In this document: positions 1 to 14,446 of the stretch, piece by piece
How positions within the stretch are numbered: position 1 is the first letter of the stretch
How the letters are laid out: every line of letters begins with the position of its first letter
IMG/VR virus record: IMGVR_UViG_3300006919_000567
Coordinates: 1 to 21,330 of that record
Direction: 5' to 3' (one strand)
DNA: 21,330 nucleotides
DNA from: a virus
Translations under genes and position numbers: made by a program
Notes under the pieces: model-generated
Database searches by the model: none
Seen by the model: only the letters and a program-made list of their open reading frames with translations
What the model was told of the DNA's origin: nothing

Positions 1-89
1 AATATTACTCCGTGTATTACTGCGTTAAATGCTAGTGTCATAGCTATTATTAAACCTATAATTAGTAACAGTGATTCTCCTTCACCCAT
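1..89 (-). CDS. Small membrane protein, cut by the window edge
   Basis: The reading frame starts at an ATG immediately inside the end of the thymidylate-synthase-like gene (8-nt overlap) and runs off the left edge of the window. The start has AGGAG six bases upstream; a second ATG one codon earlier (at 92) is too close to that site. The visible product starts MGEGES and continues as a hydrophobic stretch (LLLIIGLIIAMTLAF), so it is probably a single-span membrane peptide. Total length and function are unknown. It resembles in kind, not in sequence, the other tiny membrane ORFs of this phage. Confidence 0.55.
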   Translation of the reverse strand, partial: MGEGESLLLIIGLIIAMTLAFNAVIHGVI

Positions 90-789
90 CATGTGCTCCT
101 ATATCTAATGTATCCATTGCGTAGTCTACTGGCTTTATATGTTGTTCTATTAAATGAAAATGACGAGGATACATATGTAAACTCTGAGCTTGCCATATAA
201 TACCTCCAACTTCTAGTTCTAAGTCACCAGCTAGTCGTTCTAATACTTTAAACTGCCAATAATAGTCATTAATATACCCAAATACAACATCATTCGAGCG
301 CATCTGTACTACAGCGTGAAGTATGTCTGACTTGTTGTAATATGTTACAGCATTTGTACACACGAAGTCATCCTTACCATGCTCTCTGTGTCTCTGATGC
401 ATGTCTGGGTTTAAGTATATCATAGTTGCTCTACGAGAATCAGGATTTTTCTTTAATTCTCTATAAGCATTCTCATACTGGCTGCCGTTTAGAGCTGAAT
501 GGATCAAGAAACCATAGTTCGAGTTAACACTACCTTTAGTATTAGCAACATGTTCCCAAATGGCTGGCACTTTCCCATAAATATCTCTCAGCTTGTCGGT
601 GTTACAAACCATACTATTATACCAATGTACCTCAGCCTGCTGATACTTAGCATTGGGTTTACCAAATATACTTTCTTCATCGGTTATAAAGCTTGCACCT
701 AGTATTTCTAGGTTACCATCTTCTTCAAAGTCTTGGTCTTTAAATTTCTCTATAAATCTTTCTCTGATATGTTTAACTTGTGTTAACAT
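82..789 (-). CDS. Thymidylate synthase-fold protein, predicted dCMP hydroxymethylase
   Basis: The 235-residue product has the landmarks of the thymidylate synthase superfamily: DSRR at 117-120 (phosphate-binding Arg pair), catalytic Cys144 in FVCTNA, QMRSND at 162-167, and the HMY segment at 205-207. From Cys to this HxY the spacing is the same as in E. coli ThyA (Cys146, Arg166, His207, Tyr209), without gaps. The position equal to ThyA Asn177, which selects dUMP, is Asp175 (GYIND). Asp at this place is the known mark of dCMP hydroxymethylases such as T4 gp42. I therefore infer conversion of dCMP to 5-hydroxymethyl-dCMP using methylene-tetrahydrofolate, for making modified phage DNA. N174 sits next to it, so a one-residue slip would restore a TS-like Asn; this is the main doubt. 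The start overlaps the upstream gene by 17 nt and follows AAGGAAGAGG. Confidence 0.82.
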   Translation of the reverse strand: MLTQVKHIRERFIEKFKDQDFEEDGNLEILGASFITDEESIFGKPNAKYQQAEVHWYNSMVCNTDKLRDIYGKVPAIWEHVANTKGSVNSNYGFLIHSALNGSQYENAYRELKKNPDSRRATMIYLNPDMHQRHREHGKDDFVCTNAVTYYNKSDILHAVVQMRSNDVVFGYINDYYWQFKVLERLAGDLELEVGGIIWQAQSLHMYPRHFHLIEQHIKPVDYAMDTLDIGAHDG

Positions 790-991
790 CCTCTTCCTTC
801 CATACGGTTACGATTGCGGTATTCCATTTGAGTTTTTCTTTTTCAGCTTCTTCTCTACTGGTAAAAAGCTTTATAGGACTATTGGCAGTCCATGGATTTC
901 CTTCTCTTACATACTCATATCCTTCATCAATGAAAGGCTCAATCATTATAGCCCATTGAGTTCCTTTAGGCACTTTAACTTTATGCTCCAT
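773..991 (-). CDS. Hypothetical protein, 72 aa
   Basis: I do not recognise a named family. The product is small and soluble, with aromatic residues in the first half (EYVREGNPW) and a charged SREEAEKEKLKWNTA segment, then a short strand-like IVTVW. The look is that of small conserved accessory proteins common in marine phage early operons. The ATG lies in a coupled train: it overlaps the end of the DUF1599-like gene by 11 nt, with AAGGTAACTCC-type complement (GGAGTTACCTT) upstream giving a GGAG site. The 3' end overlaps the start of the thymidylate-synthase-like gene. Its placement next to nucleotide enzymes suggests an early role but not a specific one. Confidence 0.65.
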   Translation of the reverse strand: MEHKVKVPKGTQWAIMIEPFIDEGYEYVREGNPWTANSPIKLFTSREEAEKEKLKWNTAIVTVWKEEDVNTS

Positions 992-1352
992 TGTAAGGTA
1001 ACTCCTCTATGTCGGGCGTAAACCTATCATTGTTTATTCCCTGATCTTTCTTAACATCAAGACAATTTTCAGTATGTCGGTTTAGCCATACAATAGCTCT
1101 TGCAGAATAATTAATCAGGTCTTTAAGACAATCTTCTGCTGTATCAAAGTTAACATTACCTTGTTGTTCCATTACAGATCTAAAACGTAGTACTTTAGTT
1201 GTCAGCATAGTATCAAATGATTTCCATCCATGAGGATAATAATCATCATCACATACTGAACCACCTTGGTAGTCTTTACCTTTCTTTACCATCAAATCTA
1301 TGCATTCTTCTAGAGCTTTTATTGCGTCATACAAATACGTTTCTTTTGTCAA
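981..1352 (-). CDS. DUF1599 / MazG-like nucleotide-modification-associated protein
   Basis: The 123-residue, all-helical product has KKGKDYQ at 23-29, a K53/R56 pair in TKVLRFR, and EDCLKDLINYSARA at 73-86. This order (K-x-x-DY, then K..R, then E...DL.NY) is that of the DUF1599 / nucleotide-modification-associated domain 1 and related MazG-like proteins, which act on or bind nucleotides and are often found next to phage base-modification enzymes. That fits the hydroxymethylase-like gene two genes downstream. Family assignment is by motif only. The start is unusual: TTG at 1352, placed so that TTGA overlaps the upstream stop, with AAAGGAG upstream. The next Met (residue 21) would remove the first helix. 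Confidence 0.6.
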   Translation of the reverse strand: MTKETYLYDAIKALEECIDLMVKKGKDYQGGSVCDDDYYPHGWKSFDTMLTTKVLRFRSVMEQQGNVNFDTAEDCLKDLINYSARAIVWLNRHTENCLDVKKDQGINNDRFTPDIEELPYNGA

Positions 1353-2519: not shown

Positions 2520-2697
2520 GGTTCCTCCACATTGGTGATGTGTCTATTTTCTTTTGGTCTTCTTCACTCAGGTCTTGATATTTTACATACTTAGCTACTG
2601 GTAAATCTACTAGGCTAAATAATCCGCCTAGTCTGCCAAATTCATCAACAGGATAAGTCATTGATTTATAAGGAATTTTTATCTTTTCTTCACTCAT
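2512..2697 (-). CDS. Hypothetical protein, 61 aa
   Basis: Unrecognised. The ATG at 2697 has GGAG six bases upstream and overlaps the stop of the DUF3310 gene by 8 nt; a start four codons earlier would be in a worse position relative to the site. The product MSEEKIKIPYKSMTYPVDEF... has a FGRLGGLFSLVDLPVAKYVKY middle and a short acidic helix with DLSEEDQKK. No membrane span or metal site is visible. It is one of a run of small proteins between DUF3310 and the nucleotide enzymes. Confidence 0.62.
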   Translation of the reverse strand: MSEEKIKIPYKSMTYPVDEFGRLGGLFSLVDLPVAKYVKYQDLSEEDQKKIDTSPMWRNHA

Positions 2698-2941
2698 CTT
2701 CATCTCCATGATAAACTTTAATCAATTCATTAAGATACCATTTGGCTTTTCCAAGATCGTCTTGAGCACGACCTTTGTGTTTGAATCGCCAAATATACTT
2801 GATAATGTTGCCTTGTAAATAACCGTCATAACCATCTTCACCACAGGCTGCTTTGATTGCTTCAATACATTCAATATCACCTTGACGATAATGAGGTGGA
2901 TTGGTGACGGTAGCTTTAATTAGTTTCTTACTCACTGACAT
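2690..2941 (-). CDS. DUF3310 protein (T7 gp1.7-related domain)
   Basis: The 83-residue product matches the DUF3310 pattern closely: NPPHYRQGDIECIEAI at 14-29, a central GYLQGNIIKYIWRF at 40-53, and DDLGKAKWYLNEL at 61-73. DUF3310 is widespread in phages and makes up part of T7 gp1.7, a nucleotide kinase; stand-alone copies like this one have no proven reaction. Whether this short form is enzymatic is unknown. It overlaps its upstream neighbour by 14 nt and its downstream neighbour by 8 nt. Its company (ssDNA-binding protein, DUF1599-like protein, hydroxymethylase-like protein) fits a nucleotide or DNA-metabolism module. Confidence 0.88.
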   Translation of the reverse strand: MSVSKKLIKATVTNPPHYRQGDIECIEAIKAACGEDGYDGYLQGNIIKYIWRFKHKGRAQDDLGKAKWYLNELIKVYHGDEDE

Positions 2942-13938: not shown

Positions 13939-14016
13939 ATGAATAAGGAAGCTATGATAACGCATACTGTTATGGTTATCGGACTTTGCTTATTCATTTA
14001 TTATCTTGCTTTTTAA
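13939..14016 (+). CDS. Tiny single-span membrane peptide, 25 aa
   Basis: A 25-codon frame begins at an ATG next to the preceding stop. A second in-frame ATG at 13954 has AGGA four bases upstream and may be the true start, giving 20 residues. The product has MITHTVMVIGLCLFIYYLAF as its hydrophobic part, enough for one membrane span. The gap otherwise holds only the ribosome site of the Hsp20 gene. No homologue is known to me. Confidence 0.45.
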   Translation: MNKEAMITHTVMVIGLCLFIYYLAF

Positions 14017-14026
14017 GGAGAAACAA

Positions 14027-14446
14027 ATGAATAGACATTTAGAAATTATAGATTGGTTTAATAATTACACACCTTATACTATTGGCTTTGATAGATTGGT
14101 GGAACGATTAGCCGCAAATACTAACACGGATACTTATCCTCCGTTTAACATTATAAAGGAGGACGCAGAAAACTTTAAGATAGAAATGGCTGTAGCTGGC
14201 TTTGAAAAATCTGAAATAGATATTACAGTAGCTGACGGTATGCTATCAATTAAATCTGCAAAAGAGAATAAAAACGATGATGATAAACTTTACAGAGGTA
14301 TTTCTTACAGAAAGTTTAATAAAAAGTTTACGCTAGCTGAAGATGTAATCGTAAAAGACGCATCACTAATCTGCGGATTATTAACTATTAAACTAGAAAA
14401 AATACTTCCTGAAGAGAAGAAACCTAGGACTATTAAAATAAACTAA
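14027..14446 (+). CDS. Hsp20 / small heat shock protein
   Basis: The 139-residue product is an alpha-crystallin-domain chaperone of the IbpA type: TIGFDRLVERLAA near residue 20, YPPFNIIKEDAENFKIEMAV at the domain start, AGFEKSEIDITVADGMLSI in the core, a YRGISYRKFNKKFTLAEDV segment, and a C-terminal IKI that matches the I-x-I anchor. Small heat shock proteins are frequent in cyanophages and other marine phages and may help the folding or assembly of head proteins; the position between portal and scaffold fits this. AAGGAG stands seven bases before the ATG at 14027; an upstream TTG at 14006 is unlikely. Confidence 0.93.
   Translation: MNRHLEIIDWFNNYTPYTIGFDRLVERLAANTNTDTYPPFNIIKEDAENFKIEMAVAGFEKSEIDITVADGMLSIKSAKENKNDDDKLYRGISYRKFNKKFTLAEDVIVKDASLICGLLTIKLEKILPEEKKPRTIKIN

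Follow-up and report, generated by a model that had tools for sequence, protein, structure and literature searches.

Several described systems convert cytosine nucleotides with enzymes of the thymidylate synthase (TS) fold. T4 gp42 (1b49, 1b5d, 6a9a) is a dCMP hydroxymethylase linked to nucleotide-pool enzymes, and MilA is a CMP 5-hydroxymethylase. The 5-hydroxy-dCMP synthases of RB69 and HY126 (9iqc, 9iqu) belong to the same superfamily, act on dCMP, and also have an aspartate at the base-selecting position (PMC13390438). In MetaGPA data from environmental contigs, ThyA sites 177 and 147 separate cytosine-modified from unmodified contigs, the modified ones having Asp177 and an altered residue 147; literature cited there describes thymidylate synthase N177D as a dCMP methylase (PMC8670742). 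The carbamoyltransferase cassette of that work combines an Asp-type TS-fold enzyme, a PRA-PH protein, a dCMP deaminase, and one tailoring enzyme, and its main text does not contain the term methyltransferase. Of 37 restriction enzymes tried on the DNA of the cultured Stenotrophomonas phage AXL3 (NC_071036), 35 failed to cut, including every one with G or C in its site, and the two that cut have A/T-only sites; the authors left the modification unnamed and took gp28 for a thymidylate synthase (PMC7504290).

Here we analyse a whole virus record of 21,330 bases (the window). No named phage searched matched the window by DNA, and an Rfam scan of it matched no family. Its relatives are roseophage CRP-7 by capsid and polymerase and pelagiphage Kolga by polymerase (36-54% identity), from which a marine origin of the phage is likely. 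By its sequence, an Hsp20-like small heat-shock gene (14006-14446) lies between the portal and scaffold genes; it also occurs in the related record G008.

The predicted dCMP hydroxymethylase

The gene at 82-789 on the minus strand has an ATG start and encodes a protein of 235 residues, which an earlier note on this DNA predicted to be a dCMP hydroxymethylase. The analysis supports that prediction, with T4 gp42 as the nearest characterised enzyme and with the diagnostic residues in common, and we consider it very probable that the protein is a T4 gp42-type dCMP hydroxymethylase. In particular, the protein matches Pfam PF00303 (thymidylate synthase domain, E 8.9e-15) and PHROG_160 (E 1.1e-42), and in a phmmer search of all solved structures its best match is T4 dCMP hydroxymethylase (E 2.8e-54), with 9iqu and 9iqc (named thymidylate synthase in the PDB and titled dCMP hydroxylase) at 1.5e-10, thymidylate synthases only at 1.9e-9 or weaker, and MilA, a distant relative of the window protein, at 1.4e-7 or weaker. 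A profile of 15 relatives scores the T4 enzyme at 4.6e-83, versus 9.4e-15 for thymidylate synthases and 4.7e-15 for 5-hydroxy-dCMP synthase. A predicted model, which is weak (mean pLDDT 59.9, 15 aligned sequences) and served for fold ranking only, places the T4 enzyme at the top (Z 18.2, rmsd 3.8 over 214 residues), with dCMP hydroxylase at Z 14.2 and no thymidylate synthase above Z 13.5.

The window enzyme has the fold of T4 gp42, with about 44% of residues identical when the folds are aligned, and shares its catalytic and selector residues and its linkage to nucleotide-pool enzymes, but it does not have the 7-residue insertion that precedes the His/Tyr motif of gp42, and it falls on a separate branch of the TS tree. 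Specifically, the window group forms its own branch beside T4-like gp42 (five window-lineage rows, support 98/99), and the T4 group (support 95/97) takes in two methyltransferase-bearing contigs, L024 and L025; RB69 and ThyA sit on long branches, so that their placement was not used, and the L045 row was left aside. A tblastn search with the window enzyme matched 1371 phage records, which together with the phmmer score puts the similarity well outside chance; a hydroxymethylase search broadened by alignment gave the same five loci again. The window gene differs from that of contig L003 by 34 synonymous and 12 non-synonymous codons (NG86 dN 0.033, dS 0.31, dN/dS about 0.11); the changes being mostly silent, the gene is maintained under purifying selection.

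The catalytic Cys, the Arg-Ser, and the His-x-Tyr marks of the TS fold are all present. In an alignment with the sequences of E. coli ThyA and T4 gp42, Cys144, Thr145 (directly after the catalytic Cys), Asp167, Asp175, His205, and Tyr207 correspond to ThyA residues 146, 147, 169, 177, 207, and 209. The distances C144-H205 (61) and C144-Y207 (63) equal those of C146-H207 and C146-Y209 in ThyA, as the earlier note had claimed; its placement of Asp175 on ThyA N177 also holds, Asp175 pairing ungapped with T4 D179, and the selector site is not occupied by the neighbouring Asn174. The predicted active-site geometry follows from the alignment to T4, with which the window enzyme has Cys146, Thr147, Asp169, and Asp177 (ThyA numbering) in common as diagnostic residues. 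Positions 177 and 147 are moreover the two sites at which the MetaGPA comparison (PMC8670742) set modified contigs apart, in independent support of this reading. The earlier note read the aspartate as the mark of a dCMP hydroxymethylase; the aspartate is there, but alone it is an insufficient mark, since the 5-hydroxy-dCMP synthases RB69 and HY126 AfhB have it too.

Those synthases supply one of two other readings of the window enzyme, namely a flavin-dependent dCMP hydroxylase that would give 5-hydroxycytosine as the base. They are homologous and have both the selector Asp and the Thr after the Cys (PMC13390438), but their profile score is far behind that of the T4 enzyme, and the RB69 protein has lost its folate-site residues, with F, N, V, and F at ThyA positions 58, 169, 173, and 209, where the window enzyme and its linked relatives align E, D, G, and Y (L045 row left aside). 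The replacement of folate-site residues that characterises the RB69 type is thus not seen in the window enzyme, and, because these residues are retained, folate-dependent hydroxymethylation is favoured over hydroxylation, which we regard as extremely improbable. Barely less improbable is a thymidylate synthase or a reductive dCMP methylase making 5-methyl-dCMP. The fold is the same, and the N177D variant, in the literature cited in PMC8670742, methylates dCMP; however, T4 hydroxymethylase scores far better, Asp and Thr stand at both selector sites, and a relative encodes ThyX.

Gene neighbourhood and predicted pathway

Inside the window, an ORF of 72 residues with unassigned function (773-991, minus strand) shares 17 bases with the start of the hydroxymethylase gene and is also present in relatives L003, L004, L006, and L017. 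Upstream of it lies a gene for a DUF1599-like (nucleotide modification associated domain 1) protein of 123 residues (981-1352, minus strand). The earlier note took this gene as a sign of nucleotide modification; it does lie two genes upstream, but its match to DUF1599 (PF07659; E 0.002, 18.9 bits) is under the Pfam gathering cut-off of 25 bits and lends modification weak support. The protein also matches PHROG_18404 'hydrolase' (E 6.2e-11), and in contig L044, whose other content is different, a 39% homologue adjoins a methyltransferase and a hydroxymethylase; it is possibly an accessory nucleotide hydrolase of the hydroxymethylase operon. A DUF3310 protein (2690-2941, minus strand; Pfam E 8e-21), labelled 'nucleotide kinase' by PHROG_236 (E 3.3e-27), is a possible source of the nucleotide kinase step in the window lineage, in which no clear candidate for an hm-dCMP kinase was identified.

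Contig L002 shares 1.7 kb with the left edge of the window at 99.8% identity and shows the genes beyond it. Along the direction of transcription, L002 encodes the hydroxymethylase, a 71-residue ORF, a class I methyltransferase (MTase), a PRA-PH/MazG-type pyrophosphohydrolase, and DNA polymerase A, followed by an L5 gp82-like protein, a 5'-3' exonuclease, a primase-helicase, a dCMP deaminase, and a T7-type RNA polymerase, the last assigned from its sequence and position. Relative L004 encodes ThyX (E 1.6e-46) and therefore has a separate dTMP route. This context, with MTase, MazG/PRA-PH protein, and dCMP deaminase on L002 and ThyX in a relative, is stronger support for modification than the DUF1599-like gene. 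Glycosyltransferases were found in none of the examined parts of related records. Specifically, neither a glycosyltransferase nor a carbamoyltransferase family was matched among the scanned ORFs of G006 (a part of its ORFs, in a record that stops at the MTase and so is without the hydroxymethylase side), and inspection by eye of the ORF lists of G006 and of G008 (56 kb) revealed none. The window phage differs from T4 in its T7-type RNA polymerase, in having no glucosyltransferase found, and in its methyltransferase partner.

Enzyme family, active-site residues, and gene linkage were established by computation; from them we infer dCMP turnover, replacement of virion cytosine, and a methyl cap. 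It is highly likely that cytosine in the virion DNA of the window phage is modified, as the earlier note suggested. In the proposed pathway, Cys144 would attack C6 of dCMP, Asp175 would recognise cytosine by its N3/N4 face, the one-carbon unit would come from 5,10-methylene-THF, and water, not hydride, would quench the methylene intermediate to yield 5-hydroxymethyl-dCMP. Removal of dCTP would fall to the MazG/PRA-PH protein, and perhaps also to the DUF1599-like protein, and dTMP would come from dCMP deaminase together with ThyX, comparable to the roles of dCTPase and deaminase in T4. After phosphorylation, the hydroxymethylated nucleotide would serve the phage PolA as a substrate. In the most likely reading of the last step, the SAM-dependent MTase would cap the new hydroxyl by O-methylation, giving 5-methoxymethylcytosine, and the capped DNA would be protected against restriction enzymes as well as against enzymes recognising free 5hmC.

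The linked methyltransferase

The MTase (L002:1939-2778, 280 residues) is a class I SAM methyltransferase of Hen1/UbiG-like type that matches Pfam Methyltransf_23. In all 41 sequences of the family compared, the SAM motif D-x-G-C-G, the motif E125-x-x-E128-H129 (ExxEH), and a downstream His169 are invariant. Sequence profiles give weak but consistent matches to Hen1 and UbiG, with Hen1 aligning over the motif; the score against the UbiG equivalog TIGR01983 is 31.9 bits, under the NCBIfam cut-off of 102.95 bits, and the PHROG label is 'tRNA methyltransferase'. In HEN1 and UbiG, the residues matching ExxEH and the His bind a metal that helps to position or activate a hydroxyl. The predicted model of the MTase is confident (pLDDT 90.8), and its fold neighbours, close to one another in Z, are ChlM, CmoM, UbiG, Trm9, HEN1, and N-methyltransferases; since O- and N-type enzymes are near-equal, the fold alone does not pick the methylated atom.

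The MTase is consistently linked to Asp-type TS genes. Viral contigs were searched with the MTase (41 loci) and with a type-2 TS enzyme taken from one of these loci (80 loci, partly shared), and the merged results form 94 contig clusters, which are defined by exact sequence in common and are not evolutionarily independent. The MTase is present in 76 of the 94 clusters. A TS-fold gene lies at the MTase locus in 70 of these 76, a fraction biased upward for the part that came from the search begun with a TS gene, and the selector Asp is present in 69 of 69 readable genes, one being cut off. In the other six clusters, the TS gene is elsewhere in the record (L028, L030, and L043, by whole-record search) or the record is a fragment that ends near or before the expected TS position (L016, L031, and L033). 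The cleaner test, using records found with the MTase alone, gives PF00303 in 32 of 39; each of the remaining seven is a fragment whose end is close to the MTase. MTase and TS genes are on the same strand in 92 of 92 loci, with a median gap of 1336 bases.

The TS partners are of two classes: a T4-like class and type-2, the latter having the CMP hydroxymethylase MilA as its best solved match (E 1e-15). Every member of the residue-aligned partner set has Asp177 and Thr147 where sequenced. The hydroxymethylase class switches at least twice on the MTase tree, so the hydroxymethylases were swapped while the MTase stayed. Some Asp-type phages, among them HTVC200P, L099, and L130, have neither the MTase nor a carbamoyltransferase, so hydroxymethylase retention does not depend on the MTase.

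We consider it somewhat probable that the linked MTase acts on the modified cytosine. The simplest reading, which we hold tentatively, is O-methylation of the hydroxymethyl group. A smaller, still sizeable chance is that the MTase acts on RNA, protein, or a small molecule and merely sits in a nucleotide-metabolism operon. Such a role would fit its broad fold neighbours, which include the tRNA enzymes CmoM and Trm9 and N-methyltransferases, its PHROG label, and one bacterial-bin contig in which the MTase is 58 kb away from the Asp-type TS gene; it is opposed by the linkage to Asp-type TS genes over many contigs and two hydroxymethylase classes, by the occupation of the slot of the 5hmC carbamoyltransferase, and by an ExxEH motif that is common to O-methyltransferases. 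Methylation of another atom of the modified base, such as N4 of 5hmC, would give a product isobaric with 5-methoxymethylcytosine, and the data do tie the MTase to cytosine modification without naming the atom. However, the MTase has STP in place of a DPPY-type amino-methyltransferase motif and the enzymes nearest to it in sequence, Hen1 and UbiG, methylate oxygen, so we judge this alternative unlikely.

The hydroxymethylase belongs to a known kind of enzyme, met here in a phage setting that is new; the new part is its consistent MTase partner, and the pair is a variant of the known scheme of hydroxymethylase plus tailoring enzyme. If the MTase caps 5hmC, phages would have, in addition to glucosylation and carbamoylation, a simple means of hiding 5hmC with one enzyme, and such DNA would be missed by enzymes that need the free hydroxyl. 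The MTase may, with the same tentativeness, be the founder of a family of 5hmC O-methyltransferases through which many aquatic and soil phages replace cytosine by 5-methoxymethylcytosine. Neither methoxymethylcytosine nor a like idea appeared in the literature searched, from which subscription papers and preprints were largely outside; this is weak evidence of novelty.

The cultured phage AXL3 and other tailoring slots

AXL3 carries the same cassette in one operon (gp27-gp31), comprising methyltransferase gp31, pyrophosphohydrolase (NTP-PPase) gp30, kinase gp29, Asp-type TS gp28, and dCMP deaminase gp27, and has a separate ThyX-type gp50. It differs from the window lineage in having a type-2 hydroxymethylase, annotated thymidylate synthase, and its gp31 is a distant family member (31% identity). 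In independent support of modification in phages with this cassette, the restriction resistance of AXL3 DNA shows that C or G is altered, and it does not specify the alteration; with a cultured phage, the same cassette, and an unexplained resistance, the question of the cap is directly testable. Type-2 enzymes named thymidylate synthase also occur in HTVC200P (gp014, L138:7968-8786) and HTVC119P (gp16, L139:7944-8792), in addition to AXL3 gp28 (L056:21795-22604). Asp and Thr were read directly for the HTVC200P and AXL3 enzymes, and all three are probably misannotated cytosine-modifying enzymes, a warning for Asp177 TS genes that bear this annotation.

The cassettes resemble that of MetaGPA (PMC8670742) in the Asp TS-fold enzyme, PRA-PH protein, deaminase, and single tailoring enzyme, and differ in that the tailoring slot holds a carbamoyltransferase there and a class I SAM methyltransferase here. 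Two type-2 cassettes, L100 and L134, have no MTase and encode a carbamoyltransferase (PF02543 and PF16861) upstream of the kinase and TS genes; that of L100 is 35% identical to the enzyme proven on 5hmC. No cluster has both MTase and carbamoyltransferase (Fisher p 0.036, only nominally significant, the related contigs being non-independent).

Other arrangements were also observed. In two Asp-type TS cassettes (L135:2933-6027 and L136:2751-5998), neither methyltransferase nor carbamoyltransferase precedes the kinase; the position is taken by a PALP-type pyridoxal-phosphate enzyme together with two proteins of unassigned function, which may represent a third tailoring route. L120 and L104 have Asp-type TS and deaminase cassettes with neither methyltransferase nor carbamoyltransferase, and L120 encodes a deoxyribonucleotidase (NT5C). 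In L043 (10001-14650), an MTase-family member is followed by a C5-cytosine DNA methyltransferase-like ORF, a second methyltransferase-like ORF, and then MazG and kinase genes, with the TS match at the opposite extremity, an arrangement that a circular record would show. The type-2 cassette kinase of L037 (11238-12248) and relatives has a long C-terminal extension outside the thymidylate kinase model. In L024 (2972-4752), ORFs that look like a nucleotide-sugar dehydrogenase and an epimerase lie downstream of the hydroxymethylase, methyltransferase, and deaminase genes.
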